From positions 1-32,077 of the forward strand of contig JANWZE010000077.1 in assembly GCA_025054955.1 (NCBI GenBank): a DNA stretch of 32,077 bases. Direction: 5' to 3'. Under the pieces are notes generated by a model. That model had not been told where the DNA came from. It saw only the letters and a list, made by a program, of their open reading frames with translations, and made no database searches. The position numbers were made by a program, and so were the translations under genes. Positions 7,546 to 26,138 of this stretch are shown in pieces. Source of the stretch: Blastocatellia bacterium. Lineage in GTDB: Bacteria > Acidobacteriota > Blastocatellia > HR10 > J050. Positions within the stretch are counted from its first letter, which is position 1. Each line of letters starts with the position of its first letter.

Positions 7546-8115
7546 ATGCAAGCGATTGAACCTTCGCCTTCGGTCTATGCTGGAGCCTACCATCAGCAAG
7601 CTGACGCCGTGCTGCTTCAGCAGTGCCTAGAGAGAAATGAGCAGGCATGTTCAGCTCTATTGCAGCGCTACGGCGATATGATCTACTCGATAGCCTGCCG
7701 ATGGAGCCTCTCACCGGAGGAGGCAGCGCGAGTGTTTCAATCTGTATGGCTAGCGCTGGTTGAAAAACCGGGGTTAGCGTATCAAGAAGATGGATTGAGC
7801 TGCTGGGTGGTGTCCTCGACATTGGCCGAGTGTGTTCGAATTCGTCAACAAAGACACGGCACCTTGCGCTGCGACACGGACGCCGTCCTGTCAGAGGAAG
7901 AGATTGCCAAGCTGGAACAAGAACGGTTACTTCAGCAGGCGCTCTTGACAATGGCGGAGCCGTGTCAGGAGCGGCTCAGGTTCGTCTTGTACGACAAACA
8001 AACGTGGCTCTGCCAGCGTGCCGAAGACCCAACGCCAGCAACATGCGGCATTGAGCCAAAAATTCGTTGTTGCTTAGCAAAGTTATTAGCCATGCTCAAG
8101 GAGTTGGGCTTTTGA
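7546..8115 (+). CDS. ECF-like RNA polymerase sigma factor with a divergent region 4
   Basis: At 189 residues it has the size of an extracytoplasmic-function sigma factor. Residues ~20-75 look like region 2: ADAVLLQQCLERNEQACSAL, then LLQRYGDMIYSIACRWSLSP, then AARVFQSVWLALVE, the place where region 2.3/2.4 contacts the -10. Region 4 (about 120-185) is poorly conserved. The first helix LLQQALLTMAEPCQERLR is present and the end GIEPKIRCCLAKLLAMLKEL has the shape of the recognition helix, but the middle is unusual and rich in Cys. It leads a same-strand unit with an anti-sigma-like gene 39 bp downstream. It may direct polymerase to a small regulon or act only as a binding partner of the anti-sigma. 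Family assignment is good; activity as a true sigma factor is uncertain. Confidence 0.75.
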   Translation: MQAIEPSPSVYAGAYHQQADAVLLQQCLERNEQACSALLQRYGDMIYSIACRWSLSPEEAARVFQSVWLALVEKPGLAYQEDGLSCWVVSSTLAECVRIRQQRHGTLRCDTDAVLSEEEIAKLEQERLLQQALLTMAEPCQERLRFVLYDKQTWLCQRAEDPTPATCGIEPKIRCCLAKLLAMLKELGF

Positions 8116-8154: not shown

Positions 8155-8793
8155 ATGGAGACAGAGAACATGACGTGCATACCGATTGAAATGTTACTGG
8201 CGCAAGCACAAGGTACATTGCCTGTCGAGGAGGCCGAGCGAATCACTCACCATCTGCTCACGGCATGCCCATCATGCCGGGACCAATTCGACCTGATTCA
8301 GAAAACTGTGGCGGCCTGTGAGAATCGGAGTTTGGTCAGTCCACCTGATTGGTTGGTCAATCAAGCGATGAGTCTGTTTCGCTGGCGACCAGTGTCGGAG
8401 AAGGCAAATGAGCGGGAGATCATTCCGGCGACGCTGCTGTCTGACAGCACAACCAACAGGCGGCTGCTCGGCTTTCGCGGCGCCGGCGTAGCCGGTCGCC
8501 ATCTGCTCTACCGAGCCGGAAATTATGACATTGACCTATTCATTGACTGCATCGAGCCGGCCAGGGCGTTTGACATCATTGGCCAAACGATGCCGACGGG
8601 ATTAGAGCTGGACGCAGTGGCGCATGGCGATGTGGAGTTATTCAAAGCATCCAGCTTGGCGCTTGCCACCAAGACGAATGAATTTGGCGAGTTCCTGCTG
8701 GAACGCGTTGAAGAAGGCATTTACAGCCTGAAGCTCAAGTTCAAGACTTCGGAAATTGACATCGTTGAACTGAGAGCGTTAGCAGAGGAGTAG
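8155..8793 (+). CDS. Zinc-finger anti-sigma-like protein with beta-type C-terminal domain
   Basis: 212 residues with no membrane segment, so cytoplasmic. The N-terminus resembles the ZAS/zf-HC2 anti-sigma fold: Cys8, then HHLLTACPSC (His32/His33, Cys38, Cys41). The His-Cys spacing is one residue longer than the usual HxxxCxxC. The C-terminal part (~100-205) holds LLGFRG, LYRAGNYDIDL, IIGQTMP and TNEFGEFLLERVEEGIYSLK, which resembles the carboxypeptidase-regulatory-like beta fold. A paralogue with the same order of motifs lies at 23942-24598. It sits between the ECF-like gene and the TPR-CHAT gene (7 bp gap), so it could hold the sigma factor inactive and be a substrate of the protease; that is inference. 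An in-frame ATG at 8170 with GGAG upstream is an alternative start. Confidence 0.75.
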   Translation: METENMTCIPIEMLLAQAQGTLPVEEAERITHHLLTACPSCRDQFDLIQKTVAACENRSLVSPPDWLVNQAMSLFRWRPVSEKANEREIIPATLLSDSTTNRRLLGFRGAGVAGRHLLYRAGNYDIDLFIDCIEPARAFDIIGQTMPTGLELDAVAHGDVELFKASSLALATKTNEFGEFLLERVEEGIYSLKLKFKTSEIDIVELRALAEE

Positions 8794-11758: not shown

Positions 11759-13876
11759 ATGGAGCAAGCAAATTTGACAGCGGAAACCGAGGTCAAGCAG
11801 TTGAGCGTACACGAGCGGATTCTGCGGCGCACAAGCGAGATCGTTGAACGGAATCGGCAGTTGACGGCGCTCAACACGATTGCCACATCGGTCAGTCAGT
11901 CGTTGGATTTATCCTCGGTGCTGGAGAGCGCCACCGACCAGATCATGTACTTGATGGAATTTGAAGCTGGTTGGATCTCGCTGCTGGAGGCTCAGAGCAA
12001 CCAACTGACGTTGAGCGTGCAACGTGGGTTGTCAGACGCAGCGGTTGAGCTGCTGAGGCAGCCGCTTGCCGGCCACATGCTCATGGGGTCGGTGGCCCAA
12101 ACGGGCGAGCCGCTGATCGGGCATCTGCCGACGGGGCATGAGGATGCCTTGAGCGGGCAATTACGGCGGGATGGCTTCTCATTCTTCGTGGCTTTTCCGC
12201 TCAAAGCCAAAGGCAAGACGTTGGGCGTGATGACGCTCTGTTGCAAGAAGACGCGCATTGTGGATCGTGGCAGTAGCGAATTCCTATCTTCCGTCGGCGA
12301 CATCATTGGCGTGGCGGTGGAGAACGCCTCGCTCTATCACAACATTGCCCAGATTGCCGAGCAATTGAAGGTCTCTGAGCACAAGTATCGGTCGCTGATT
12401 GAAAAGGCCAAAGATGCGGTCCTGCTGATCCAGGACGGTCGTATCTGTTACGCCAATCAGAGCGCAGTGACCATCAGTGGATATTCGCTGGAGGAGCTTT
12501 ATCAGCTTGAAAATGTCCTTGATTTGGTCCCTGAAAATGACCGCGAAGCCGTCAAGCAGTGGTGTGAACAGATCGCGCAGGATGAGGAGCTGGCGAGCCT
12601 GGAGGTGGTAGCCCGCCACAAAGATGGTCATGAGATTCATCTGGAGGTGCGTGGGTCAACGGTTGAGGTTGACGGCCGCCCGGCGACGCAATTTGTCGTT
12701 CGTGATGTTAGTGAACAAAAGCTGTTGCGCGAGCAAATTATGCGGTCTGAGAAGATGGCTGCGCTCGGTCAATTGATTTCCGGCGTGGCGCATGAACTGA
12801 ACAATCCGCTGACGGTGGTCATCGGCTACAGTGAACTGCTGACGCTGGCCGGGCAACAGCTTCCCGAGACGGTTCAGCGTGGACTGAGCACCATCCAGGA
12901 TGCGGCGCAACGGGCTGGCAAAATCGTACAAAACTTGTTGACCTTTGCCCGCAAGCATCAAGCGACCCAAGCGCGGGTCAAGATCAACGAGCTGATCGAG
13001 CATACGCTGGCGTTGCGCGCTTACGAGATGAGCGTCAATAACATTGAGGTGGAGAAAGAGCTGGCCGAAGACCTGCCGGAGACAGTGGCTGACCCGCATC
13101 AATTGCAACAGGTCTTCTTGAATTTGATCGTCAACGCTGAGCAGGCGATGTTGAAAGCCAACAATCGCGGGCTTCTTCGGATTCACACGCGGGAGAAAGT
13201 GGGCTACTTGCCGAAGCTTCAAGGCCCGACGCGGCTGATCGAAATCGTGTTCAGTGACGATGGGCCGGGCATTGCGCCGGAGCACATGTCACGCATCTTC
13301 GAGCCGTTCTTCACCACCAAGGATGTGGGTGAGGGCACAGGGCTGGGGCTTTCAATCTCCCACGCGATCATCCGGGCGCACCGAGGGCGGATTGACGTGC
13401 GCAGTGAATTGGGCAAAGGGGCGACGTTCATCATCGAGTTGCCGATTGTGCAAGAGCTATCGGTTGTCGCCAGTGAAGCAGCGGACATGCCGCCGCGCAA
13501 GCAGGTCACACCAAAAGACGTGCTCATCATTGATGACGAGGCAGGGATTGTCAATCTCTTGCGCCGGATTATCACTGACGAAGGGCATCGCGTTGAGACG
13601 GCGTCCAACGGCTCAGAAGCGTTGAGCCGACTGGCGGACAAGGAATACGATTTGATCTTCTGCGATTACAAAATGCCGCAGATGAACGGTCAGGAGCTGT
13701 TTCGCGAGCTTGAGCGGCGCAATGGCCGGCTGGCCAAGAAAATGGTCTTCGTCACCGGCGACACCGTCAGCCCGCAGACGCGCGATTTCCTCGCCACCTG
13801 TGGCAGCAAGGTTTTGGAAAAGCCGTTCATCACCCAAGAAATCGTGCGCGTCGTCCGCACCATGCTATCGGATTAA
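11759..13876 (+). CDS. Cytoplasmic hybrid sensor histidine kinase (GAF-PAS-HisKA-HATPase-REC)
   Basis: 705 residues and no membrane segment. Order: a GAF-like domain at ~40-195, PAS at ~210-320 (DAVLLIQDGRICYANQSAVT), HisKA with GVAHELNNPL and phospho-acceptor His345, HATPase_c at ~435-560 (N box LNLIVNAEQAM, G1 DDGPGIAPEH, G2 GEGTGLGLSI), and a C-terminal receiver at ~580-703 (LIIDDEAG, acceptor Asp636 in FCDYKMP, Lys in LEKPF). GGAGGGAG lies just upstream of the ATG, and the gene starts 24 bp after the TPR-CHAT gene, so it is likely in the same transcript. It would sense a cytosolic ligand or redox state through GAF/PAS and pass phosphate to its own receiver. The final output is unknown, since no phosphotransfer protein is adjacent. 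Confidence 0.93.
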   Translation: MEQANLTAETEVKQLSVHERILRRTSEIVERNRQLTALNTIATSVSQSLDLSSVLESATDQIMYLMEFEAGWISLLEAQSNQLTLSVQRGLSDAAVELLRQPLAGHMLMGSVAQTGEPLIGHLPTGHEDALSGQLRRDGFSFFVAFPLKAKGKTLGVMTLCCKKTRIVDRGSSEFLSSVGDIIGVAVENASLYHNIAQIAEQLKVSEHKYRSLIEKAKDAVLLIQDGRICYANQSAVTISGYSLEELYQLENVLDLVPENDREAVKQWCEQIAQDEELASLEVVARHKDGHEIHLEVRGSTVEVDGRPATQFVVRDVSEQKLLREQIMRSEKMAALGQLISGVAHELNNPLTVVIGYSELLTLAGQQLPETVQRGLSTIQDAAQRAGKIVQNLLTFARKHQATQARVKINELIEHTLALRAYEMSVNNIEVEKELAEDLPETVADPHQLQQVFLNLIVNAEQAMLKANNRGLLRIHTREKVGYLPKLQGPTRLIEIVFSDDGPGIAPEHMSRIFEPFFTTKDVGEGTGLGLSISHAIIRAHRGRIDVRSELGKGATFIIELPIVQELSVVASEAADMPPRKQVTPKDVLIIDDEAGIVNLLRRIITDEGHRVETASNGSEALSRLADKEYDLIFCDYKMPQMNGQELFRELERRNGRLAKKMVFVTGDTVSPQTRDFLATCGSKVLEKPFITQEIVRVVRTMLSD

Positions 13877-13886
13877 CCAGCTTGTG

Positions 13887-13951
13887 CCGGCCTGGACTGC
13901 ATTGCGTCAGTAGCTACAACTCCCACCACACCAGCAATCCCACCAGGCCGG
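13887..13951. terminator. Inverted repeat between convergent genes
   Basis: CCGGCCTGG (13887-13895) and CCAGGCCGG (13943-13951) are a perfect 9-bp inverted repeat enclosing 47 bases. It lies between the end of the histidine kinase gene and the end of the convergent epimerase-like gene, followed on the plus strand by a short ATTTTC. It may be a bidirectional terminator, though the loop is long. Confidence 0.3.
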
Positions 13952-13991
13952 CCATTTTCATGGCTCGCCTGCCGGTTTCCTGTTCACCATT

Positions 13992-14447
13992 TCATTCTGC
14001 TTGGTTCCACACGTAGGAGATGGCGCTGCTTTGCCGATCCAAGTGGAATTCGTCGGGGTCATCATAGTTGTATGGCTCGCTCATCACACTGATGACGAGG
14101 GCCTCGGTCTGGCTCAGGCACATAAGCCCGTAGTAGACGCCTGGCGGCACTTGCACCAATTTTTGATTCCAATCGCCGATGAACCACTCATCCAGTTGAC
14201 CGCGCGTTGGCGAGTCGTCGCGGCCATCATAGAGCACCAGTTTGACCATGCCTCGAATGACCAGCAAGTGGGTCCACTGTTTCAGATGATAGTGCCAGGC
14301 TTTGATGACCCTCGGATAAAGCGTGTTCAGGTTGAGCTGCCCGAACTTGATGTATATTTCGTCATCAGCACGCAACAATTCAACCAGGCATCCTTGTTCG
14401 TTGGGAACCACACGTAACGGTTTAACTTTGACGCCATCAATCATCAT
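13992..14447 (-). CDS. RmlC-like cupin, dTDP-sugar 3,5-epimerase-related
   Basis: 151 residues from the ATG at 14447. The fold signature is that of RmlC-type cupins: IKAWHYHLKQWTHLLVIRG with two His where the family places its active-site base, then GMVKLVLYDGRD, a VQVPPGVYYGLMCLS turn and VSVMSEPYNYDDPDE near the end. The longer reading frame runs 33 residues further upstream but into the preceding nth gene. The ATG at 14447 overlaps that gene's stop (ATGA), so I choose it. Third in a chain bshA-nth-this gene. It could epimerise a nucleotide sugar or only share the fold. No other rhamnose gene is in the window, so no gene symbol is given. Confidence 0.8.
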   Translation of the reverse strand: MMIDGVKVKPLRVVPNEQGCLVELLRADDEIYIKFGQLNLNTLYPRVIKAWHYHLKQWTHLLVIRGMVKLVLYDGRDDSPTRGQLDEWFIGDWNQKLVQVPPGVYYGLMCLSQTEALVISVMSEPYNYDDPDEFHLDRQSSAISYVWNQAE

Positions 14448-15118
14448 GCGCACACCTCGGTTGGTAACCGTGAACTCGCTTGTTGCGCGTAGCGACAGTG
14501 GTCTAACAATGGACAGGCCACGCACCGGGGGTGACGTGGACGACAATAGCGCCGGCCCAAGCGGATCAGGTTGATGTGGGTGGAGTAGTACTTCTTCGAT
14601 GGAATGAGTTGGCCGAGTAACTCATGTGCACGCGCAGCCGAGCAAGCCGGTGGCACCACACCTAGTCGCTTGGCGACCCGCAAGATGTGCGTGTCGGCGG
14701 GAAAAACCGGTCGGCGGCAACCAAACAGCAGCACGCACGCTGCCGTCTTCGGACCGACGCCTTCCAACGATGTGAGAAACGCTTTGGCGTCATCCAGTGG
14801 CATTCGACGCAGGCAGTCCAGATCGAGGGAACCGCAGCGGGCGTGGATGCGCTGGAGGACTCGCTTGATGCGGACCGATTTGATGTTGGCCAGGCCCGCC
14901 TGTCGAATGGCGTCAGCAATGGTCTGCGCGCGCGCGCGACGCGCCTGCTGCCAGTCAGCAAATCGCCGCTTCAGTTGAAGAAACGCTCGGCGGCTATTGA
15001 TGTCGGTGGTGGATTGCGAGAGGATCGTTTCGATCAACACGTCCAAAGGATTTCGCTTCGGGCCAGGGCGAGGCACGCCGAAGACAGCCTCCAGACGCTC
15101 AATGATGGATGTCATCAT
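14444..15118 (-). CDS. Endonuclease III-like DNA glycosylase (HhH-GPD, 4Fe-4S)
   Basis: 224 residues, the usual length for the family. It would excise damaged pyrimidines or a related lesion and may nick the strand by beta-elimination. The helix-hairpin-helix is LEGVGPKTAACVLL with the lyase Lys at 124; the catalytic Asp is 142 in FPADTHILRV. The iron-sulfur cluster ligands are Cys192, Cys199, Cys202 and Cys208 with the C-x6-C-x2-C-x5-C spacing. The N-terminal NPLDVLIETILSQSTTD is also typical. The start overlaps the bshA stop by ATGA and the stop overlaps the next gene by ATGA, so the three are translationally coupled. It is clearly in the Nth superfamily, but the lesion specificity (Nth, Pdg-like or other) cannot be read from sequence alone. 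Confidence 0.9.
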   Translation of the reverse strand: MMTSIIERLEAVFGVPRPGPKRNPLDVLIETILSQSTTDINSRRAFLQLKRRFADWQQARRARAQTIADAIRQAGLANIKSVRIKRVLQRIHARCGSLDLDCLRRMPLDDAKAFLTSLEGVGPKTAACVLLFGCRRPVFPADTHILRVAKRLGVVPPACSAARAHELLGQLIPSKKYYSTHINLIRLGRRYCRPRHPRCVACPLLDHCRYAQQASSRLPTEVCA

Positions 15119-16248
15119 GTCGGCTTGACCTGTTCCAACACGCGTTGATAGAAAGCCTCGTACAGCGGGATGATCTTCCGGCTGGAGAATCGTTCGATGG
15201 CGCGGGCGCGAGCGCGTTGGCCCATGGCCTGACGCAATGAATCGTCTTGCAACAGGTGAATCACCGCCTCGGCCATTGCCGCCACGTCGCCGACCGGTAA
15301 CAAGTACCCGGTCTCGCCGTGATCAACGACTTCCGGCAGCCCGCCAACGCGGCTGGCCACCACCGGGACTTCACAAGCCATCGCCTCCAACGCTGCCAGC
15401 CCAAATGATTCCAGTTCGCTCGGCAGTAACAGCACGTCGGCCAGCGAGAGATATTCCGGCACGTTCGGTTGCTTGCCGACGAAGTGCACGGCATCGGCCA
15501 CGCCGCGCTGCCGCGCCAGCCATTCGGCATTGGCGCGATCGGGTCCATCGCCGACCATGATGAGCCGCGCCGGCACGTGCCGGCGGACACGAGCTAGAAT
15601 TTCAATACAATCAGGCGCGCGTTTGGGCGGACGAAAGTTCGAGACATGGATCAACAACGGCTCATCATGCGGCGCCAAGGCGGCGCGTTTCGCCATATTG
15701 GCTCGGCGCACATAGAACGTTTCGTCAATGAAATTGGGAATGACCTCAACTTGGCAGCGGCCAAAAATCTCACAAGTGGCGCGGCGCAGGTCTTCCGATA
15801 CGGCCGTAACGCCATCGCTTTGATGGATGCCGAAGCGTGTCATCGGCAAGTAAGAACGGTCGCGCCCCACCAGCGTGATGTCTGTCCCGTGCAGGGTCGT
15901 GACAATTGGCAGGTAACGCTCCGGCTTCAGCATCTCGCGAGCAAGAAATGCGCTGATCGAATGAGGAATCGCATAGTGCACATGGAGAATATCCAGTTTC
16001 ACATCCAAGGCGACTTCCAGTTGTTTGGTGGCCAACGCTAGATCGTATGGCACGTGCTCGAACAACGGATAATCCATGATCTCGACTTCATGAAAGTGGA
16101 TACGCTCGGATAACTCGGTGAGGCGCGTCGGCAACGAGGCGCAGATAAAGTGCACCTGATGGCCGCGTCGGCCTAGCTCGATGCCTAATTCCGAGGCCAC
16201 GATTCCGCTGCCGCCATAGGTAGGATAACAGGTGATGCCGATGTTCAT
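15115..16248 (-). CDS. bshA: N-acetyl-alpha-D-glucosaminyl L-malate synthase (bacillithiol biosynthesis)
   Basis: 377 residues, a GT4-family glycosyltransferase with two Rossmann-like domains. The N-terminus MNIGITCYPTYGGSGIVASE is the characteristic BshA start, followed by HVHYAIPHSISAFLARE and TLHGTDITLVGRD, also BshA-type. The nucleotide-sugar site near the C-terminus has the E-x7-E form in ESFGLAALEAMACEVPVVAS. BshA joins UDP-GlcNAc to malate in the first step of the thiol bacillithiol. bshB and bshC are not in the window, which is common because they are often unlinked. It heads the minus-strand chain with an nth-like glycosylase and a cupin. The 247-base stretch upstream (16249-16495) has no other gene. 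Confidence 0.92.
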   Translation of the reverse strand: MNIGITCYPTYGGSGIVASELGIELGRRGHQVHFICASLPTRLTELSERIHFHEVEIMDYPLFEHVPYDLALATKQLEVALDVKLDILHVHYAIPHSISAFLAREMLKPERYLPIVTTLHGTDITLVGRDRSYLPMTRFGIHQSDGVTAVSEDLRRATCEIFGRCQVEVIPNFIDETFYVRRANMAKRAALAPHDEPLLIHVSNFRPPKRAPDCIEILARVRRHVPARLIMVGDGPDRANAEWLARQRGVADAVHFVGKQPNVPEYLSLADVLLLPSELESFGLAALEAMACEVPVVASRVGGLPEVVDHGETGYLLPVGDVAAMAEAVIHLLQDDSLRQAMGQRARARAIERFSSRKIIPLYEAFYQRVLEQVKPT

Positions 16249-16269
16249 AGCAACGTCTCACGTCAGTTT

Positions 16270-16430
16270 CTTAGACCAATGGCTGAGGAATCGCCCGTGA
16301 GCTCCACGCATACGACGATGGATGAACACGAGGCCGCTGAGGTCACCGAGGTCCACTGCGAGCCCGCTGTGCCTTTGTGCCTTCTTGGCCTCTGCGGCCA
16401 TTTTCGGGGAGAGACCACGTTGATAGAGCC
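16270..16430. other. Non-coding stretch with phrase-like G/C-T repeats
   Basis: Between bshA and the next gene I see no convincing coding frame. The stretch holds short reiterated words such as GAGGCCGCTGAGGTCACCGA and TGCCTTTGTGCCTTCTTGGC followed by CTCTGCGGCC, similar in style to low-complexity intergenic phrases found dispersed in some bacterial genomes. No promoter for bshA stands out. Confidence 0.3.
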
Positions 16431-16495
16431 AAAAAGCATAGCGTGGCCTGAGCTGACTGAACGGGACTGTGCGAGCATCACTCGGCATTTGGTAT

Positions 16496-16939
16496 TTAGG
16501 TCATAGCGATGAAATCTTCAAACTCGTCCAGCATCATCAAGCCGCCTTCTTGCGGCGCTTCGACGACGCCATGCGACAACGCAGTCATCACAGCCACCAC
16601 GCGCAGTTGAAATAGGCTGGCTTGCCCATATTCATCGCTGTCGGCCGTAATCGTGTACTTGCGCGCCGCGTTCTTCACCTGGAAAGGCAGTTGATCATAA
16701 TCTTCGGCCATCTGCTGAATATGCTCAGTCGAAGGGATGCTGACCGTAATCCGGCAATGCCAGGTGACGCCATCTTTCTCAGCAGTCAGATGGAGTTGGC
16801 TCCACTGGTTCGGCGCCTGCTCGGTCTCAGGGAGGGCCTGCACGCGACAGGGAAAGCCGGCGGCTGTCAGGGCATTGATAATATCAGTTGTTGCCGGGAG
16901 ACGGTTTTTATTCGACCAGACAAAAAATTCCTGATTCAT
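16496..16939 (-). CDS. Small hypothetical cytoplasmic protein
   Basis: 147 residues from the ATG at 16939, which has GAGGA about seven bases upstream; a TTG two codons earlier is the only longer option. I do not recognise the family. The protein is soluble and mixed alpha/beta: a start NQEFFVWSNKNRLPATTDII, then a strand-rich middle (WHCRITVSIPST), a YTITADSDEYGQASLFQLRV segment, and an acidic end MLDEFEDFIAM. The pattern of an N-terminal 'partially predicted pair' and a tail with a short acidic helix suggests a small binding protein, not an enzyme. It has its own promoter upstream and is not overlapped by its neighbours. Confidence 0.7.
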   Translation of the reverse strand: MNQEFFVWSNKNRLPATTDIINALTAAGFPCRVQALPETEQAPNQWSQLHLTAEKDGVTWHCRITVSIPSTEHIQQMAEDYDQLPFQVKNAARKYTITADSDEYGQASLFQLRVVAVMTALSHGVVEAPQEGGLMMLDEFEDFIAMT

Positions 16940-17025
16940 GCCCAATCCTCATTGATCAGTTCCTCAGGGAGTTTTGGTGTCGTTGGCTGACATGCATGAG
17001 CTATGCTTAACAGTGTGTATCATCG

Positions 17026-17054
17026 GTAATACGTGGCAGTGCCATTGTAGTCAA
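17026..17054 (-). promoter_or_regulatory. Promoter of the 147-residue protein gene
   Basis: On the minus strand TTGACT (17054-17049), 17 bp and TATTAC (17031-17026) match sigma-70 spacing with good -35 and moderate -10. The leader to the ATG at 16939 would be about 80 bases. Confidence 0.45.
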
Positions 17055-17063
17055 GCCTGCATT

Positions 17064-17666
17064 TTATTGCAACAATTTTTCGCTCTGCTCAAGGCTCATG
17101 GGTGGTTCTTTTTTGTTCTTACGCTGCTCGCGTTTGAGTTTGAGTTCCTGTTCGCTTTCCCGCGCGTCCTGGTAGGCCACCTTCACATCTTCGATGATCT
17201 GCTCCAGCCGCTGGTTCGTGGCCGCATCAGAGATGCGCGAGCGGAGCGCCTCCAGTCGTGGCAGGTGCCGGCTCATATGTTCACAGAACAGCGTCAGCGC
17301 CTTGAGCATCTTTTCGTCCGACACACGGCGGTCATAGGCTTCTTCGACATTGACAATGACCTCTTCAATCGCGCGATGATAGTGATTGAGCCAATCGGCG
17401 CGCGTGCCCGAAGCAAGCGCGCCCCACTCCCGCTCCTCGCGCTTGAGCGCGGGCGATTGTGGGTCTTCCGCTGCCAACAACCGACGTTCGGCAATTTTCA
17501 TGAACGTCTTGACGCGCTGGTCAATCACTTGCGCGTTGCGCACATGCTCGACTTCTTCACTCGTCAAATAATCAATGGACGCCTGAGGCAAAATCAGCTC
17601 CGCCTCCCAAAGCGTACCCAGTAGGCTCATTGCAAGAAGTATGACCGCTGCTGGCGTGTAGATCAT
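17064..17666 (-). CDS. Secreted or membrane-anchored helical protein, DUF of unknown role
   Basis: 200 residues if started at the ATG at 17666. This begins MIYTPAAVILLAMSLLGTLW, a clear signal-like hydrophobic segment, then charged helices to the end. The frame stays open 54 codons further upstream, but that extension lacks secondary-structure character and overlaps the region before the divergent ABC gene, so I do not use it. From about residue 40 the protein is rich in Glu, Arg and Leu (SEEVEHVRNAQVIDQRVKTF; RLEALRSRISDAATNQRLEQ) and probably coiled coil. The C-terminal tail is basic (KREQRKNKKE). There is no Cys-based or catalytic motif. It may be a periplasmic helical-bundle protein. The start is uncertain because no strong ribosome site is visible. 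Confidence 0.65.
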   Translation of the reverse strand: MIYTPAAVILLAMSLLGTLWEAELILPQASIDYLTSEEVEHVRNAQVIDQRVKTFMKIAERRLLAAEDPQSPALKREEREWGALASGTRADWLNHYHRAIEEVIVNVEEAYDRRVSDEKMLKALTLFCEHMSRHLPRLEALRSRISDAATNQRLEQIIEDVKVAYQDARESEQELKLKREQRKNKKEPPMSLEQSEKLLQ

Positions 17667-17902
17667 AACCGCTGCACATGCTACGTAATGGGCATTTCGT
17701 TTGTCAACGACACCGGGATTGCTCAGGGCCAATTGGATCAATGCTCGGCGATCCGTCGAGCGCATCCCATCTGAACAACCGGCTGAGCCTGCCGCTTGGG
17801 TCAATGCAGTGGCTTGAGCGCATACCAATTAACAACAGACCACACGTCAGCGCCAACCACTTGCCAATCAATAGCCCTCCCAGCAAAATATCGGCTCGCA
17901 GC

Positions 17903-18679
17903 ATGATTGAGGTCTCAAACCTAACAAAGTGGTATGGCAGTCTGCTGGCTGTGAACGCTGTTTCGTTTCGCGTTGAACGGGGAGAAATTCTCGGCTATCT
18001 CGGCCCGAACGGGGCAGGCAAAAGCACAACGGTCAAAATGCTGACGGGCATTTTATCGCCATCAAGCGGCACGATCCTGATTGATGGGCAAGACCTGACA
18101 ACCAATCCGCTCGCTGTTAAGCAGCGCATGGGGTACGTGCCTGAAGCCGGCGGCTTGTACGAAAGTTTGACCGCTTATGAATTCCTTCAACTCGTTGGTC
18201 GGCTCTACCACCTGCCGGAGCCACTGCTGGAGTGGAGAGCGCAGCAGTTATGCCGGCTGTTTGGATTGGAGGCATTCCAGCATGAACGCTTGTCGGGACT
18301 TTCGAAGGGCATGAAGCAGAAAGTCTTGCTCAGCGCCGCATTGATTCATAATCCAGACATTCTGTTTCTGGATGAACCACTGAGCGGCCTTGATGCTACG
18401 ACGATGCTCATCATCAAAGAACTGCTCAGTCAACTGGCAGCCCGCGGCAAGACGATCTTTTATTGTTCGCACGTGCTGGACGTGGTTGAACGCATCTGCC
18501 GACGCGTCGTCATTCTTGACCGAGGCCGAATCATTGCCGATGCGCCGGTTGAACAATTGAAAGAAGTCACAGCCCAACAATCGCTGGAAGGTGTCTTTAG
18601 TCAACTGACCGAAGCAACTGACGCGAGCCAGGTGGCCCGCGCGTTGACCGAGATTATCGCTGGCGAGGCAGGCCCATGA
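17903..18679 (+). CDS. ABC transporter ATP-binding protein
   Basis: 258 residues from the ATG at 17903, where MIEVSNLTKWYGSLLAVNAV begins exactly as the family does. The frame extends 75 codons upstream but that part has no ABC character. Walker A is GPNGAGKST (34-42), the signature loop is LSKGMKQK (133-140) and Walker B is ILFLDEP with Glu158; the switch His is in YCSHVLDVVE. It resembles ABC-2 export ATPases (ABC-A type). It overlaps the permease gene by ATGA, so the two subunits are made together and should form a heteromeric or homodimeric exporter in the inner membrane. The substrate is unknown. Confidence 0.9.
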   Translation: MIEVSNLTKWYGSLLAVNAVSFRVERGEILGYLGPNGAGKSTTVKMLTGILSPSSGTILIDGQDLTTNPLAVKQRMGYVPEAGGLYESLTAYEFLQLVGRLYHLPEPLLEWRAQQLCRLFGLEAFQHERLSGLSKGMKQKVLLSAALIHNPDILFLDEPLSGLDATTMLIIKELLSQLAARGKTIFYCSHVLDVVERICRRVVILDRGRIIADAPVEQLKEVTAQQSLEGVFSQLTEATDASQVARALTEIIAGEAGP

Positions 18680-20391
18680 AAGCGCTGGAGAGTCTCGTCA
18701 ATCGGTTGATTCGCTGGCTCAGCGGCTGGCTCAGGCATGTCGGCGTTGACGCGGAGCAGTACCATGCTTTGCTGATTGCTTCGCTGAAAATGGACTTTCG
18801 CAGCGAGAACCTCATGCCGGACATCGGCAGACAACGCTCGACCGGCTCGGCGCTGGCCTGGACCGTTGGGCTCTACATGCTGTTTAGCGCCCTGCTTGCC
18901 TGGTTACTGACCTCGATACATCTTGAACGCGAGTTAGTGACCGGGTTGCTGATTTGCTACAGCATGTTCATGCTGGCCACGGCCATCCTGATCGAGTTTG
19001 GCGCAACGATCATCAATCCTAACGATCTGCCGTTCATTCGCTCGCGGCCTGTTTCCTCGCGCACATACTTTGCGGTCAAGTTTTCCAATCTCACTTTCTA
19101 CGTGCTCCTCTTCGGCGTGGCTTTGAATCTGCTTCCGGCGCTGATCGGAGCGCGCGCTGCCGACGTTTGGTGGTCATTTGCTCTGGCCTATTTTTTGGCA
19201 GCGATGCTGTCTTCGTTGTTCACGGCTGGTGTGATCGTCGCGCTCTATGATCTCTTGGCGCGATTGGTGAAACTGGAACGACTCAAGGATTTCGTCACCT
19301 ACGCGCAGATTGGTTTCTCATTTTCTCTTTTCTTCGGCTATCAAGCTCTGTATCAGTACGTCGAGGCGTGGCGTCGAGAAGGCGGAAGCCCAGTAGATAG
19401 CCTGTGGGCTATGTTCGTGCCGCCGTTTTGGTTTGCTGGCTTCATTGAAGTCTCACTTGGGCATATTGATCAGGCAACACTCATGCGAGCGACGGTGGCG
19501 CTGATGGCGGTCGCGCTGTGCGCTCTCATGCTGATCAAAAGCGTCGCCGTGGGCTATACGGAGCGCCAGCATCAGGCGACGCGCGACGCTGAACCGTTAC
19601 CGGCGCCGACCGGCTGGCTGCGGCAGCTCAGCGGCATCATCAGCCGGTGGGTTGATAGGGCTTTGCTTCGAGACGCGGAAGAACGCGCTGTCTACCACTT
19701 GATTCTGGCCATGCTGGCCCGCAGCCGAGGTCTCAAGTTGCGATTGTATCCAACGCTCGGCATGTCGCTGGCGTTACTCGTGCTCTACGTCTGGCAATAC
19801 AAGAAAGTGCCGATACCGCTTGATCACGCGCACCCCTTCTTTGCTTTGTGGTCGTTACTGGCATTCCCGCTTGCGGCCAGTGGTCTGTACAGTGTTTTGC
19901 CCTATTCAGATGAGCATCAGGGTCATTGGATTTTCCGCGTGGCTCCATTGCAGCGACCCGGGTGCGTGGTGGCTGCTATCAGCAAAGCGGCGCTGTTGGG
20001 ACTATTTCTCCCCTTGTGGACGATCAATACGCTGCTGCTCGTGTCTGTATGGCCGATGATGCTGGCAGTCTGGCATAGTCTCTATGGTCTGCTGTTGGGC
20101 TATCTGACATTGCAATTATTGTTGTTGGGATTTTCCACTTGGCCATTTTCACAACCATTCGGCAAGGGACAACAAAATGAACTCATCACGATGTCGCTTG
20201 TCGTGATGGTGATAATCGGCGCGCTTATTTTTGCGGTGCGATGGCTGGTCGCTGACTGGCTTACTATGTCCTGGCCAATGGCGCTGCTGGTCGTTACCTG
20301 CTGGGTGGTGGGCCGACTGAGCAGGCGTTTGTATGCCCGCCGGGTACAGCAGAAGGGTCAGGCCGCCGGGCTACAAGAGGCACTAGGCTGA
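18676..20391 (+). CDS. ABC-2-type exporter membrane subunit
   Basis: 571 residues with about a dozen hydrophobic segments, the first near 52-73 ([18 protein letters not shown]), then pairs around 79-105, 130-190 and 200-225, a break with a charged loop, and six more from about 355 to the end. The length is about twice that of a typical six-helix ABC-2 permease, so it may be a fused pair of half-units. The start overlaps the ATPase stop. The last nine bases overlap the end of the convergent tdk gene. No substrate-specific motif is visible, and no periplasmic binding protein is nearby, which fits export rather than uptake. Confidence 0.85.
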
Positions 20392-20973
20392 TTCTGAGGC
20401 CGCTTTTGGCACAGCGACGCCGGGCACGAAACAACGCCGGCAACGCGCTTCATAAATGCCGCTCGCGCCGACCAACACGCGGTCGGTACTGGCGACAAGT
20501 CGTTGTGTGTAGTTCGCCGGATTGCCACACTGCACGCAGATAGCCAGTGTCTTGGTGATGTATTCGGCGATCGCCAGCAGTTGCGGCATGGGTTCAAATG
20601 GCTGGCCTAAGTAGTCCTGATCAAGCCCGGCCACAATGACGCGCTTGCCACGATTGGCCAACGTATTGCACACCTCGACCAAATCACTATCGAAAAATTG
20701 GCCTTCGTCAATGCCAACCACGTCCGTGTCTTCATGGACGCGCTGCATGATCTCAGCAGCCGAGTGGACAATATCGGCCTCCATGCGCATTTGACTGTGT
20801 GAGACGATTTGATGCTGATCGTAGCGCGCGTCAATGGCTGGCTTGAAAATCTGGACTTTTTGCCGAGCAATCTGCGCGCGCCGTAGACGCCGGATCAGCT
20901 CTTCGCTCTTGCCGCTGAACATGGCGCCACAGACCACCTCGATCCACCCCTGCTGACTTTTCATTACATTCAT
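20383..20973 (-). CDS. tdk: Thymidine kinase (type II)
   Basis: 196 residues, typical length. It phosphorylates thymidine with ATP in pyrimidine salvage. The P-loop is GAMFSGKS (16-23); the catalytic Glu is Glu90 in [10 protein letters not shown]; the structural zinc would be held by Cys146, Cys149 (CVQC) and Cys178, Cys181 (CRRC). The lasso loop region [15 protein letters not shown] is present. GAGGAG lies eight bases upstream of the ATG. It is transcribed divergently from the LeuA-like gene; its promoter lies in the shared 92 bp. Confidence 0.95.
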
Positions 20974-21006
20974 GCTGATGTCTCCTCACATCGAAAATTG
21001 GCTTGG

Positions 21007-21035
21007 TTGACGGTTGACATTCTAGCGGGTTGAAT
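21007..21035 (+). promoter_or_regulatory. Promoter of the LeuA-like gene
   Basis: TTGACG (21007-21012), 17 bp and TTGAAT (21030-21035) fit a sigma-70 promoter; TTGACA at 21014 is a second possible -35. The start would be near 21042, only about 24 bases before the ATG at 21066. Confidence 0.35.
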
Positions 21036-21046
21036 TTGAAAATCAA
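21019..21046 (-). promoter_or_regulatory. Promoter of tdk
   Basis: On the minus strand TTGATT (21046-21041), 16 bp and TAGAAT (21024-21019) fit sigma-70. It overlaps the divergent promoter of the LeuA-like gene, so the two probably exclude each other. Confidence 0.4.
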
Positions 21047-21065
21047 CGGCGGCAGGGAGGAATAT

Positions 21066-22277
21066 ATGAACCAGAGCGCGCTCATCTACGATTGGAATGC
21101 TGTCGGTGGCGATGTCGCCCGATCACTGGACATCGAATTTGATGATGAAACGCTGCGCGATGGCCTGCAATCGCCATCCGTTCGCAATCCGACGATTGAG
21201 CAGAAACTAGAGATATTGCACCTGATGGCGCAATTGGGCATTGAAGCGGCGGATGTCGGCTTGCCTGGTGCCGGCCCGCACGTGGTGGCCGACGTAACCC
21301 GACTGGTCAAAGAAATTGCGGATGCGCGATTGCCAATCAAACCCAACTGCGCGGCCCGCACGGTGCGCGCTGACATTCTACCCATCATTGAAATTTCTCA
21401 AGCAACGGGTCTGGCGCTGGAGGTCGCAGCCTTCATCGGTTCCAGTCCGATTCGTCAGTATGTGGAAGATTGGCCGCTGGACATGATGCTGCGGGCGACA
21501 GAAGAAGCTGTCTCGCTAGCCGTCAAAAATGGGCTTTCTGTTTCCTACGTGACCGAAGATACCACGCGGGCCCATCCCGATACGTTGCGCCGATTGTACA
21601 AGACGGCGATTGAATGCGGCGCCTATCGCGTGGTGATTGCTGATACGGTTGGGCACGCCACGCCGCGCGGCGCGGCAGCCGTAGTGTCATTCATCAAGCG
21701 CATCATCGCCGAAACGGGCGAGCCGGTCAAAGTGGATTGGCATGGTCACAATGATCGCGGGTTGGGCGTGATCAATGCCATTGCCGCTATTGAAGCTGGC
21801 GCTCAGCGCGTTCATGCCACTGCCTTAGGCATTGGCGAGCGTTGCGGCAATGTGCCGATGGACCAATTGCTCATCAACCTGCAATTGATGGGGTACATTG
21901 ATCGTGACTTATCCAAGCTATTGAACTACTGCCAGGCCGTGTCGCGCGCCTGCGGTGTGCCAATTCCCTGTAACTATCCGGCGCTGGGGCGCGACGCGTT
22001 TCGCACGGCCACTGGCGTCCATGCCGCCGCTGTGATCAAAGCCTACAAGAAACGTGACGCACATCTGGCCAACATCGTTTATTCGGGCGTGCCGGCTCAC
22101 TTGTTTGGCCTGGAGCAGATCATCGAAATCGGCCCTGTCAGCGGACGATCTAATGTGATCTACTGGCTGGCCAAACGCGGCATTGAACCGACCGAGGAGC
22201 GCGTCGGACGCATCTTCGATCGCGCCAAGCGATCCACGACCGTGTTGACAGAAGAAGAAGTCCTCGAACTTGTATAG
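21066..22277 (+). CDS. Short isopropylmalate/homocitrate synthase-like enzyme (DRE-TIM metallolyase)
   Basis: 403 residues from the ATG at 21066, preceded by AGGGAGGA; an ATG 12 codons upstream has no ribosome site. The DRE-TIM barrel is clear: DDETLRDGLQSPSVRN at the N-terminus supplies the Asp/Arg ligands, and WHGHNDRGLG gives the metal-binding His226 and His228, with GIGERCGNVPMDQLLINLQL later. The C-terminal regulatory domain of LeuA is missing, so the length fits homocitrate synthase, citramalate synthase or the short LeuA2 type. The motif DGLQ differs from the DGEQ found in the full-length leuA at 28385. It condenses an acyl-CoA with a 2-oxo acid, but the exact substrate cannot be decided here. 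An M20 peptidase follows 14 bp downstream. Confidence 0.85.
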   Translation: MNQSALIYDWNAVGGDVARSLDIEFDDETLRDGLQSPSVRNPTIEQKLEILHLMAQLGIEAADVGLPGAGPHVVADVTRLVKEIADARLPIKPNCAARTVRADILPIIEISQATGLALEVAAFIGSSPIRQYVEDWPLDMMLRATEEAVSLAVKNGLSVSYVTEDTTRAHPDTLRRLYKTAIECGAYRVVIADTVGHATPRGAAAVVSFIKRIIAETGEPVKVDWHGHNDRGLGVINAIAAIEAGAQRVHATALGIGERCGNVPMDQLLINLQLMGYIDRDLSKLLNYCQAVSRACGVPIPCNYPALGRDAFRTATGVHAAAVIKAYKKRDAHLANIVYSGVPAHLFGLEQIIEIGPVSGRSNVIYWLAKRGIEPTEERVGRIFDRAKRSTTVLTEEEVLELV

Positions 22278-22291
22278 CGCAGTAAGGAACC

Positions 22292-23512
22292 TTGAAGAAC
22301 GCACCTGATTCGGCCTTGCTCACATCTGCCTCTGCCGATCATCGGCTGATTCAACGCGCTTTCGCAATGATTGACGCGACGGCCGAGCAGGTGACGCAAG
22401 AGCAGATCACGATTTGTGAGATTCCGGCGCCGCCGTTTGGCGAGCAGCGGCGCGCTGCCTATTTTGAGCAACGATTTCGCCAACTGGGACTGAGCGCCGT
22501 TCATCAGGATGCGGCTGGCAACGTCATCGGGGTGTGGCCAGGCGTTGCCGAGCGCCCCATAGTGGTCGTCTCGGCTCATCTGGATACCGTGTTTGCAGCA
22601 GAGGTGGACACGCGCGTCGAACAGCGCAACGGTCGGCTATACGCGCCGGGCATCGGCGACAATGCCTGTGGGCTAGCCGCGCTCCTGGCGCTGATTCACG
22701 TGATGCAACAGAGCGAAATGCTCGTCAACGGCAGGGTCGTCTTTCTGGCCACCGTCGGGGAGGAAGGCGAAGGCAATCTGCGTGGCGTGCGTCACTTCTT
22801 TAGCCACAGCCTATGGGCTGGGCGCGTTGATGCGTTTGTCTCACTGGACGGTCATGGCGTCGAACGGATTGTCCATCAAGCGCTCGGCTCACGCCGGTAT
22901 CGGGTGACATTCACCGGGCCGGGCGGACATAGCTGGAGCGATTTTGGACTGGTCAATCCCATCCACGCGCTCTCCAGCGCCGTGCGTGAATTGGTCAAAT
23001 ATCCGCTGCCTCAACAACCGCGCACGAGTCTCAACGTGGGTCGCATCTGCGGCGGCCAATCAGTCAATGCGATTCCGCAATCGGCAACTATGGACGTGGA
23101 CGCTCGCTCAACCTCGCAAGATGAACTGGAGCGTATCGAGCTGTTTTTACACGCCACCGTTGAAGCGGCGGCGCAGCAAGAAAATCAGCGGTGCGCCGGC
23201 ACGGGCACGTGCCTGCAAACGATGATTGAGCGGCTCGGTGAACGTCCAACCGGCCAGACACCTGTGGAGTCCCATCTTGTCCAGGCAGCCGTACGAGCAA
23301 CGCGAGCGATTGGTATTGAACCGACCTTCGAGTGCGCTTCGACCGATAGTAATTTGCCAATCTCATTGGGTATTCCGGCGATCACGCTCGGCGCCGGCGG
23401 CAACGGTGGCCAGTCGCATACGCTCGATGAATGGTATGATCCGACTGACCGTGAGCTGGGAATCAAACGCGCGCTGCTCTTGTTGATGGAGCTGGTCGGA
23501 CGGCAAAGTTGA
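22292..23512 (+). CDS. M20-family metallopeptidase
   Basis: 406 residues. The M20 catalytic set is complete: SAHLDTV with metal ligand His96 and Asp98, GIGDNACGLAALLAL with bridging Asp123, GEEGEGN with the base/ligand Glu157-Glu158, LDGHG with Asp186, and a final His in GGQSHTLDEW. The dimerisation-domain motif GGHSWSDFG is also seen. The chosen start is a TTG at 22292 with AAGGA just upstream; the next ATG (MIDATAEQ) would remove part of the first helix. It may be a dipeptidase, tripeptidase or an N-acyl amino acid hydrolase. Coupling to a homocitrate/isopropylmalate synthase-like gene suggests amino-acid metabolism. Specificity is not readable. Confidence 0.85.
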   Translation: MKNAPDSALLTSASADHRLIQRAFAMIDATAEQVTQEQITICEIPAPPFGEQRRAAYFEQRFRQLGLSAVHQDAAGNVIGVWPGVAERPIVVVSAHLDTVFAAEVDTRVEQRNGRLYAPGIGDNACGLAALLALIHVMQQSEMLVNGRVVFLATVGEEGEGNLRGVRHFFSHSLWAGRVDAFVSLDGHGVERIVHQALGSRRYRVTFTGPGGHSWSDFGLVNPIHALSSAVRELVKYPLPQQPRTSLNVGRICGGQSVNAIPQSATMDVDARSTSQDELERIELFLHATVEAAAQQENQRCAGTGTCLQTMIERLGERPTGQTPVESHLVQAAVRATRAIGIEPTFECASTDSNLPISLGIPAITLGAGGNGGQSHTLDEWYDPTDRELGIKRALLLLMELVGRQS

Positions 23513-23626: not shown

Positions 23627-23872
23627 CGGCGCAGCGACACCCACTGATGAACCAGCGCCACGCAGGCATCATTGACAAGGGGATGGTGAGGAAGAATGCC
23701 CGCGTAGCCGAGCAGCTCAATCCTTTCGTCTGTGTGTCTCAGTGCGGGCTGTCAGGAGTTGGTTGGAGGGGTGATAAATGAGTCAGCACCGGTTCAAACT
23801 GATCGAAGCGTCCTGAATGGACGCAACCGATTTCAACGGTTGCAGCGATTTCCAATGGCCTTGGCTTGCAGG

Positions 23873-23944
23873 CCTCACATCTTGCAGGCTGCTGCACAGT
23901 GGGAGCGTGCGCTTCCAGCATAAGTTCATTCGCCAACTGCTCTA
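23873..23944. repeat. Dispersed hairpin-containing repeat, copy 2
   Basis: See the copy at 79-149. It carries the hairpin TGGGAGCG-TG-CGCTTCCA and, upstream of it, a direct repeat CTTGCAGGC spaced by seven bases. Its end coincides with the stop codon (complement of CTA at 23942-23944) of the anti-sigma-like gene, so the element starts at the very end of that reading frame. Confidence 0.5.
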
Positions 23945-24598
23945 ATGCCTGAGGACATCGAGCGCGACAATAACCTGGCGGCCTCCCAACTCAAAGCTCA
24001 ACGTGTAGATTCCTTCCGGCACGCCATCTATCACGAATTCACCCCATTCGTTCATTCGCGTGTCGAGCACTATCCGGTCTCCCTGCAAAAGCCGCACGGG
24101 CGCCCCACACAGCGGCACGCCTTCCGCCTCCAGCGGCAGCGATTGACCGATAATCGCGACCCCTTGCCGACCCTCGTGATAGTCGAACAAAAGATCAATG
24201 TCATACTGGCCGGCGCGATAAAGCATCTGTCGTGACATGGCATCCGTGCCACGAAAACCGAGCAATCGCTCATCAGCCCAACTATCCACCAGCAACAACG
24301 CCGGCGCTTGCTCCGTCTGGTTTGCCGATTGGCTACCCAAACGCCACGCAAACAGGCGTTGGACACTGCGCGTGAGCCAGGCCGGGGGAGCTAGCAGCTC
24401 TCGTCGCTCAGCAGCAGCCACAACTCGCTGGAGCTGAGCCAATAACTGCCGACACTTTTCACAACAGCCTAAATGCGCATGAATGGGCTGAGCCTCGCTG
24501 GCCGGCAACGTCTCTTGAACCAAACTTAACAATTGCTCACAGGCCACACACCCGGTCGCATCAACGTTTGGCTCCGGTCCAATGATCTGTGCGTCCAT
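23942..24598 (-). CDS. Second zinc-finger anti-sigma-like protein, paralogue of the 8155 gene
   Basis: 218 residues with AGGAGG eight bases upstream of the ATG. The N-terminal zinc finger has CVAC (Cys17, Cys20) and HAHLGCCEKC, with the canonical HxxxCxxC spacing. The C-terminal domain matches the paralogue motif by motif: LLGFRG, LYRAGQYDIDLL, AIIGQSLP, RMNEWGEFVIDGVPEGIYTL. Unlike the first copy it has no sigma or CHAT gene beside it; upstream on the same strand is an NtrC-type regulator (151 bp gap). No membrane segment is seen. It may bind a sigma factor encoded elsewhere. Duplication is clear; function is inferred from the zinc finger. Confidence 0.8.
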   Translation of the reverse strand: MDAQIIGPEPNVDATGCVACEQLLSLVQETLPASEAQPIHAHLGCCEKCRQLLAQLQRVVAAAERRELLAPPAWLTRSVQRLFAWRLGSQSANQTEQAPALLLVDSWADERLLGFRGTDAMSRQMLYRAGQYDIDLLFDYHEGRQGVAIIGQSLPLEAEGVPLCGAPVRLLQGDRIVLDTRMNEWGEFVIDGVPEGIYTLSFELGGRQVIVALDVLRH

Positions 24599-24749
24599 CG
24601 CATTTCCTCCTAACGAACATGAAAAGAACCCAATGCCAACGCAGGCTCTTTCAATGTGCGCTTCTATTATCTCATGAACGGTGCCAGAAAAACGATTCGT
24701 AGAATTACTGATCAGCTTGCGGAATTATACCTAAGCTTATCGGGATGCC

Positions 24750-26138
24750 CTATCGGGCGGAGAGGTTAAACTTTTTCATCCGACGCCATAATGTGACGCG
24801 ACTGATACCCAGCTCGCGAGCAGCCTGATCCAGGTTGCCGCGATGACGGTTGATCGCGTCCTGGATGAGTGCCCGCTCTCTGGCCGCTAAGACTTCAAGT
24901 CGTGGGATGGAAGCACTGTTGGTTTGGTGCTCCGCCGGCGCTTGCCCAAGCGCCAGTTTCTGCCAGGCCAGCTCGCGCACACGCAACGGCAATGCGCTGA
25001 CGGTGATGAGGGGATCTGTACATACGGCCACCGCCTGCTCAATGATGTGCTTCAACTCGCGGACGTTCCCCGGATAGTCATAGGCTAACAAAACCCGCAA
25101 CGCCTCCGGCTCAATTCCGCGAATCGGTTTACCGTCGCGCCGGCTGTACCGCTGCAAAAAGAATTCGGCCAGCAGTGGAATGTCGCTGCGCCGGGCTCGC
25201 AGCGGCGGCACATGAATCGAGACAACATTGAGCCGGTAGTAAAGGTCTTCACGAAAGTGACGCTGAGCAATAGCCCGCAGCAGGTCGTGGTTGGTCGCCG
25301 CAATGATGCGCACGTCGGCTGTGATCGTTTGATTCTCTCCCAACCGGCGAATTGTGTGATCTTCGAGCACGCGCAGTAGCTTGGCCTGCACGCCGAGCGG
25401 CATCGCGCCAATTTCATCCAGGAAGAATGTGCCGCCATGCGCTTCCTGAATCAATCCGATGCGATCTGCCGTGGCTCCGGTGAATGCACCCTTGACGTGA
25501 CCGAACAACTCGCTTTCCAGCAATTGTTCGGGGAAGGCAGCGCAGTTGATAGAAACGAACGGTTTGTCGGCGCGGCGGCTCAATTGATGTATCAGCCGCG
25601 CGATGAGGTCTTTTCCAACGCCGGTTTCACCCGTGACCAACACGGTGCTCTCAGTGGGCGCCACCTGCTTGACTTTGCTTAATACATCGGCTAGCTCCTG
25701 CGAGACCCCAATAACCGACTCCAACCCGATTCGCTGGTGAACGGCGCCGGCGCAATGCTCATCGAGCTGATTCACGGAGCGCTTTTGCAAAATGGAGTGC
25801 ACCCGCTTGAGTAGCTCGTCGCGACCAAACGGCTTGCATAGGTAATCACAAGCGCCGAGCTTCATGGCTTCGACGGCTGAATCAATAGAAGCAAAGCCTG
25901 TGATAATCATGACGGGCAAGCGAGGCTGCATCACGCGCACACGTTGCAGCAGGCTGAGACCCGACATGACGGGCATTTTCCAGTCAGCAATGACCAAATC
26001 GTATTCAGCGAGCTGGATGAGTTGTAGCGCTTGTTGTCCATTGGACGCTGCCGTGACCTGAAACCCTTCTGTTTCCAGCACACGAGTCAGCATCTGCCCA
26101 ATCTGCGGTTCATCATCAACGACCAGAATGCGCGGCAT
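24750..26138 (-). CDS. NtrC-family sigma-54-dependent response regulator
   Basis: 462 residues in the usual order. Receiver at 1-117: VVDDEPQ with Asp8/Asp9, phospho-acceptor Asp52 in VIADWKMP, Thr80 and Lys102 in LCKPF. AAA+ domain: Walker A GETGVGKD (170-177), GAFTGA at 217-222, which contacts sigma-54, and RIIAATNHDL as sensor I. The end has a Fis-type helix-turn-helix (LDQAARELGISRVTLWRRMK). All catalytic and sigma-54 contact motifs are intact. No cognate kinase is adjacent; the hybrid kinase at 11759 is a candidate only by presence. It would activate sigma-54 promoters elsewhere, since none is convincing in this window. A consensus -10 lies upstream. Confidence 0.95.
   Translation of the reverse strand: MPRILVVDDEPQIGQMLTRVLETEGFQVTAASNGQQALQLIQLAEYDLVIADWKMPVMSGLSLLQRVRVMQPRLPVMIITGFASIDSAVEAMKLGACDYLCKPFGRDELLKRVHSILQKRSVNQLDEHCAGAVHQRIGLESVIGVSQELADVLSKVKQVAPTESTVLVTGETGVGKDLIARLIHQLSRRADKPFVSINCAAFPEQLLESELFGHVKGAFTGATADRIGLIQEAHGGTFFLDEIGAMPLGVQAKLLRVLEDHTIRRLGENQTITADVRIIAATNHDLLRAIAQRHFREDLYYRLNVVSIHVPPLRARRSDIPLLAEFFLQRYSRRDGKPIRGIEPEALRVLLAYDYPGNVRELKHIIEQAVAVCTDPLITVSALPLRVRELAWQKLALGQAPAEHQTNSASIPRLEVLAARERALIQDAINRHRGNLDQAARELGISRVTLWRRMKKFNLSAR

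Follow-up and report, generated by a model that had tools for sequence, protein, structure and literature searches.

An orphan zinc-finger gene of a Blastocatellia bacterium, probably parted from its TPR-CHAT operon by an inversion, and its anti-sigma-like family

The 32,077-nucleotide contig JANWZE010000077.1 of a Blastocatellia bacterium (assembly GCA_025054955.1), which was analyzed at its full length and is referred to here as the window, carries two genes for similar zinc-finger proteins. One of these, ZF1, stands in an operon together with the genes for a sigma factor of the extracytoplasmic-function (ECF) type (SIG), a protein with TPR repeats and a CHAT protease domain, and a hybrid histidine kinase; the other, ZF2, lies farther downstream on the opposite strand, next to the gene for an NtrC-type response regulator. 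We consider it very probable that ZF2 is a displaced member of that operon, parted from it by an inversion, and likely, with less assurance, that the family to which both proteins belong has an anti-sigma role; to the two statements taken jointly we give about even chances.

ZF2 is 43% identical to ZF1 by BLASTP over 202 columns (E 4e-53), as expected of the second copy of the protein encoded at 8155 that a sequence-only reading of the window had recognized, and the C-terminal 110 residues of ZF2 are 42% identical to ZF1 over 107 columns (E 7e-27), the C-terminal domains thus being related as well. These values, together with the genome search described below, exclude a chance likeness. The five motifs pointed out by that reading (LLGFRG, LYRAG-YDIDL, IIGQ, NE-GEF, and EGIY) are aligned in the two copies and follow in identical order. 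The finger is spaced H-X3-C-X2-C in ZF2 (H42, C46, C49) and H-X4-C-X2-C in ZF1, which difference had been correctly read; the further idea that ZF1 had lost a canonical spacing did not survive a pattern search of the first 110 residues of 48 family proteins, since the X4 form was the commoner (28/48, versus 18/48 with X3 and 2/48 with neither) and is accordingly no peculiarity of ZF1. With respect to its surroundings, ZF2 has indeed no sigma gene for a neighbor: on the same strand, neither a family SIG within 4 kb nor a family CHAT gene within 5 kb was found. When the window sigma was searched by tblastn at E ≤ 1e-3, its own place was the sole match in the window, with no sigma remnant beside ZF2, and no family subtilase (S8) was found in the window.

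The displacement was deduced from the gene order in two genomes of a sister genus, G014 and G033. The window reads SIG, ZF1, CHAT, and kinase (all +), then a block of genes, the M20 peptidase gene (+), ZF2 (-), and NtrC (-); G014 has NtrC (+), then the block, M20 (+), ZF2 (-), kinase (-), CHAT (-), and ZF1 (-); and in G033 a single contig carries the block, M20 (+), ZF2 (-), kinase (-), and CHAT (-), with ZF1 and NtrC on other contigs. The block is collinear between the window and G014, and likewise with G033 over the extent covered by the contigs of the latter. In both arrangements ZF2 remains beside the M20 gene, on the same side and strand, and what is swapped on its other flank is the kinase and NtrC. 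A single inversion of the block plus ZF2 (~13.9-24.6 kb, a length of ~10.7 kb) would interconvert the window and the sister orders, and because that one event would produce the adjacency of ZF2 and NtrC, the two genes may well have become neighbors by accident. Rearrangement accounts for the missing sigma gene better than a separate, sigma-free use of ZF2 does. A search for inverted repeats at both breakpoints returned just chance matches of 7-8 bases. Inside the block, at 17678-20391, the window has an ABC-transporter gene pair with no counterpart in the compared stretches of G014 and G033.

The same comparison bears on the proposal, made in the sequence-only reading, that the family is used with CHAT- or NtrC-type signaling. 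The CHAT part of that proposal was upheld by the census given below; the NtrC part was not, synteny speaking against it. A partnership between ZF2 and the NtrC-type regulator could be suspected from their common strand and from the spacing of 151 bp that separates the NtrC stop from the ZF2 start; against that suspicion, the best NtrC match in G014 (62% identity) lies ~8.7 kb from ZF2 and ~15 kb from ZF1, at the far end of the block, and NtrC-like open reading frames were labeled in no more than 3 of the 45 other regions (L018, L065, and L073), so that we regard such a partnership as highly improbable.

The displacement also has to be weighed against several less favorable points. The outgroup stretches examined do not polarize the inversion, being without ZF2 and the block: genome G019 possesses SIG, a zinc-finger protein, CHAT, S8, and the kinase, the two stretches of it that were examined contain neither ZF2 nor the block, and the genome yields no third strong family match. 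These facts would also suit an inversion in the opposite sense, by which, in the sister genus, a ZF2 already apart from the operon came to lie next to the kinase; since, however, the family stands by CHAT in 45 of 48 instances and it would be simpler for ZF2 to have arisen as a tandem copy closing the operon, we hold that course of events to be unlikely. As to the phylogeny, a tree of 48 proteins groups ZF2 with ZF1 and the G014 and G033 copies with weak support (81/32). In a tree of 17 rows the ZF2 copies are not resolved as one clade, holding the three together costs 1.0 log unit (approximately-unbiased test, p-AU 0.379), and joining both window copies is equally allowed at a cost of 1.3 log units (p-AU 0.406). 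The orthology suggested by synteny is therefore neither backed nor rejected by the tree. Table 1 lists the features of the window on which the displacement of ZF2 turns.

Table 1. Positions of the operon, of the orphan gene, and of the presumed inversion in the window
Feature	Position	Strand	Remarks
SIG, ECF sigma, degenerate	7546..8115	+	Sigma70_r2 16 bits (cut-off 24)
ZF1, operon copy of the zinc-finger protein	8155..8793	+	
TPR-CHAT protein	8801..11734	+	977 aa; CHAT E 7.9e-62; His849, Cys889
Hybrid histidine kinase	11759..13876	+	after CHAT; GAF, PAS, HisKA, HATPase, receiver
Left inversion breakpoint, inferred	13877..14443		between kinase and HhH-GPD gene; from gene order
Collinear block	14444..23512		HhH-GPD gene, glycosyltransferase, 16496, 17064, 20383, HMGL-like, M20 peptidase
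ZF2, orphan second copy	23942..24598	-	218 aa; ATG start; intact frame
ZF2, zinc-finger anti-sigma-like domain	residues ~17-64		
ZF2, C-terminal beta-sandwich	residues ~120-218		
Right inversion breakpoint, inferred	24599..24749		between ZF2 and NtrC; from gene order
NtrC-type response regulator	24750..26138	-	neighbor, judged outside the system

How exceptional the solitude of ZF2 is may be judged from a census of 48 family proteins in 46 regions, comprising the window and 45 fetched regions (5 from the source genome and 40 from other genomes), which were picked by their zinc-finger match and not by their neighbors. The search of the class had given 73 rows, 7 of them in the source genome; 41 of the 66 others were covered by the 40 regions, and since the 25 left out were weaker or partial, the census describes the better matches. 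From the 49 zinc-finger rows listed we omitted L050 (1344 amino acids), a different kind of protein. Of the 48 family proteins, 45 are accompanied by a CHAT gene and 40 by a SIG gene of the same strand, at distances of up to 5 kb and 4 kb, respectively, and 33 by a subtilase within 6 kb, S8 also making up 5 of the 9 neighbor proteins scanned. CHAT is missing in three cases: L048 and L051, both at contig ends, and ZF2, which is the one clear exception to the company of CHAT. Eight are without SIG, namely ZF2, L048, both copies of L049, L052, L065, L066, and L071.

Some members depart from the common arrangement in other ways. Those at 6503-7084 of L079 and at 6374-6856 of L087 are without the finger pattern and still stand between SIG and the CHAT-S8 pair, while L059 (7356-9803) and L060 (7256-8809), which belong to a single family of the class, have an additional gene (CusF-like or DUF5666) between SIG and the zinc-finger gene and a second ECF sigma upstream.

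The larger family foreseen in the sequence-only reading proved to exist, to an extent that this reading had understated. In the source genome (4.69 Mb in 152 contigs, of which the window is one entire contig, with ZF2 situated 7.5 kb from its nearest end) we found seven clear homologues, all at E 1.2e-24 or better, followed by six more rows at E 0.01-0.33, and a genome search with the C-terminal 110 residues of ZF2, as that reading had advised along with the count of sigma and CHAT neighbors, recovered the same seven. Six of the seven have the order SIG, zinc-finger protein, and TPR-CHAT on one strand, in one instance (L018) with ~2.7 kb between the zinc-finger gene and CHAT; the seventh is ZF2. 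Matches at E ≤ 1e-3, in part weak or partial, occur in 42 of the 118 genomes of the class. In the phylum, at least 38 of 396 genomes match a 32-member profile at E ≤ 1e-12 (at least 21 inside the class and at least 17 outside), which counts are lower bounds, 7 candidates having been scored per genome.

If ZF2 has lost its place, the question arises as to whether it has also lost its function. That ZF2 might be a decaying relic, without function in the source genome, is a notion that draws on its having no partner of its own: the genome contains no spare CHAT, the six long CHAT matches all lying in zinc-finger clusters and the others comprising one continuation, one end piece where a contig starts, and three weaker hits, nor is there a spare family sigma, the six found being likewise all in clusters and other sigmas scoring from 86 bits down. 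In addition, the sigma of the cluster in the window is degenerate, and a simple scan of 23500-24800 showed no sigma-70-like promoter. Against that notion, the ZF2 frame is intact, its finger and C-terminal motifs are conserved, and in the sister genus the ratio of nonsynonymous to synonymous substitution rates (dN/dS, Nei-Gojobori, G014 versus G033) is 0.14 for ZF2, the values for ZF1 and the kinase being 0.32 and 0.05. The ZF2 of the sister genus is accordingly under purifying selection, which bears only indirectly on the window copy; we think it unlikely that ZF2 is a relic, and its still being functional seems to us the likelier state, if with a good measure of doubt.

The protein itself, as far as can be judged from sequence profiles and a predicted structure, would be a soluble one in which an anti-sigma-like, ChrR-like zinc finger is joined to a beta sandwich, with no membrane helix. 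The solved structures that match the family profile are anti-sigma domains in its N-terminal part (RsiW, E 6e-7; DdvA, 1.2e-5; ChrR, 0.008) and beta-sandwich chains in its C-terminal part. In searches of Pfam at E ≤ 1 with 32 members, CarboxypepD_reg was found in 25 and zf-HC2 in 13; for ZF2 the sole row was CarboxypepD_reg (PF13620), at 20.1 bits, under the gathering cut-off of 32.3. An AlphaFold2 model of ZF2 (9 rows) reached a mean predicted local distance difference test score (pLDDT) of 78.6 and a predicted template-modeling score (pTM) of 0.54. Its residues 14-70 aligned best with ChrR (Z 8.4, root-mean-square deviation 3.6, 57 residues aligned), and from about residue 120 on it found many beta-sandwich matches with middling Z values of up to 8.0. 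Among the fold-search rows printed, none except that of ChrR spans both domains; by Foldseek, the whole model matched ChrR at E 3.9e-4, with a poor template-modeling score of ~0.22. Since a 19-residue stretch with a mean hydropathy of at least 1.6 occurs in none of the 48 family proteins, the family protein should be soluble.

To this probable anti-sigma role we must oppose a number of observations that speak against it. As a single sequence, ZF2 matches the solved anti-sigma domains more weakly (DdvA, E 0.0021); the best NCBIfam anti-sigma model gave 15 bits versus a cut-off of 100; and in Pfam ZF2 has no zf-HC2 row, while ZF1 has one at 10.4 versus 22.2 bits. The finger is absent in 2 of the 48 family members, and 13 match rows of the phylum profile have no start before model position 41, perhaps as partial matches or perhaps through loss of the finger. 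The finger-less members would thus count against zinc being essential to the module. From such observations the family protein could be construed not as an anti-sigma factor, but as an adaptor or a substrate of CHAT, in which the beta sandwich does the work and the finger is an optional docking element: L079 and L087 lack the finger and are nevertheless adjoined by SIG and CHAT, more profile matches begin past the finger, and L065, L066, L071, and L049 have CHAT, with no SIG found. The invariance of H42, C46, and C49 in the 32-member alignment (from which the two finger-less members were absent), the resemblance of the domain to anti-sigma structures, and the presence of SIG near 40 of the 48 proteins nonetheless argue against that construction, which we consider doubtful, and the anti-sigma role continues to be the one we favor.

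The sigma factor of the operon is degenerate. It retains 24 of 37 conserved residues, as opposed to a median of 34, and scores 117 bits versus the 276-299 bits of the four well-matched family sigmas of the source genome, which has a further poorly matched one at 102 bits. No SIG was found beside ZF1 or ZF2 in G014 and G033, and the sigma profile gave nothing convincing upstream of ZF1 in either genome, the best row (E 0.006) sitting in L065. Erosion in this lineage seems to affect the sigma partner, the zinc-finger, CHAT, and kinase genes being kept. Elsewhere in the two sister-genus genomes, a well-matched family sigma has no zinc-finger gene adjoining: in G014 (L175, 6878-7468), whose downstream open reading frames are, by eye, type I methyltransferase-like and transposase-like, near a contig end, and in G033 (L176, 99-719), at a contig end.

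The TPR-CHAT protein bears His849 and Cys889, which we take to be the catalytic pair and which are both conserved in 42 of 44 CHAT proteins, the remaining two being truncated at contig ends. The best matches of its CHAT domain among solved chains were 8d9f/8d9g, 7x8a, and 7y83 (E ~1e-13), presumably type III-E CRISPR complexes; the entry 7y9x is labeled Csx29, and the NCBIfam Csx29 model matched the protein of the window at E 3.5e-17 with 62.5 bits, under its cut-off of 300.

Among known systems, the closest in gene content is that of the ECF54 sigma factors, whose members, according to the review PMC8999054, neighbor genes for carboxypeptidase, subtilase, and CHAT proteins, with a proteolytic control lacking an anti-sigma factor being proposed there; the ECF54 model sigma listed in the same review is actinobacterial, from Geodermatophilus amargosae. 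The likeness, at the level of the gene context of the family, lies in the carboxypeptidase-like, subtilase, and CHAT genes beside an ECF sigma; such company characterizes the family in the proportions given above, whereas ZF2 itself has none of it. Because of that ECF54-like company, the module is not new in outline. What differs is that here, in Acidobacteriota, the carboxypeptidase-regulatory-like protein bears an N-terminal anti-sigma-type zinc finger, and this finger is the variant with respect to the known outline. A partial literature search, mostly of titles and abstracts, returned neither an anti-sigma zinc finger on a carboxypeptidase-like protein nor this module in Acidobacteriota.

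A second parallel is the type III-E system, in which, as stated in PMC10028731, Csx29 cleaves Csx30, the inhibitor of CASP-sigma. In both instances a TPR-CHAT protease, a sigma inhibitor, and an ECF sigma are encoded together, with related CHAT domains; unlike Csx30, the inhibitor here would be a short zinc-finger/beta-sandwich protein, and the matches of the family profile to Protein Data Bank chains at E ≤ 1 included no Csx30 chain. The module is also here called CRISPR-free, in contrast to type III-E, though the neighborhoods were not searched for Cas7-11 or other CRISPR genes.

The finger of the family is, in turn, similar to that of DdvA, the anti-sigma of DdvS in Myxococcus xanthus (at the E value reported above), and DdvS becomes active once DdvA is inactivated (PMC4374960). 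The DdvA entry 8rlz has the same first residues as the 991-residue "CHAT domain-containing protein" 8rot, so that 8rot would represent the complete DdvA; there, finger and CHAT seem to be joined in one chain, whereas in the present family they are separate proteins. ChrR of Rhodobacter sphaeroides, a soluble two-domain anti-sigma factor with an N-terminal zinc finger, resembles ZF2 in its predicted layout and is the top structural match of the N-terminal domain; it differs in its second domain, that of the family being a carboxypeptidase-regulatory/transthyretin-like sandwich. Other caspase/ECF systems are described in PMC8195603.

Upon these comparisons we propose the following scheme. The N-terminal zinc-finger domain would keep an ECF sigma inactive until a signal is read by the TPR repeats, whereupon CHAT would cut the zinc-finger protein and free the sigma, as Csx29 cuts Csx30; the cleavage of the family protein by CHAT, which we advance by analogy, is a tentative proposal. 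The inversion would have taken place in the lineage of the window, ZF2 having formerly followed the histidine kinase. Because the local sigma is degenerate, ZF2 might now serve another of the operons in trans, whether as an additional inhibitor or as a second substrate. The most far-reaching version, that Acidobacteriota, some of their genomes with several copies, possess a CRISPR-free switch whose TPR-CHAT protease frees an ECF sigma by cutting a two-domain zinc-finger anti-sigma, and that ZF2 is an escaped second substrate or decoy coupling such switches in trans, we regard as speculative and rather unlikely in its entirety.

If the scheme were true, the logic of sigma inhibitor and TPR-CHAT that is familiar from type III-E CRISPR would have a place beyond CRISPR in many Acidobacteriota; the anti-sigma missing from the ECF54 context would be the protein noted there just for its carboxypeptidase-like domain; and a natural substrate would become directly testable for a large set of CHAT proteases. 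ZF2 by itself is a modest case: that of an operon member most likely moved by an inversion.

A library of defense-system models gave no rows for SIG, ZF1, or ZF2, and weak ones for the TPR and receiver parts of the CHAT protein and the kinase. Upstream of the operon, at 1358-6742, the window encodes a protein of 1794 amino acids, in which Big_2 was the sole domain recognized at E ≤ 1e-5.
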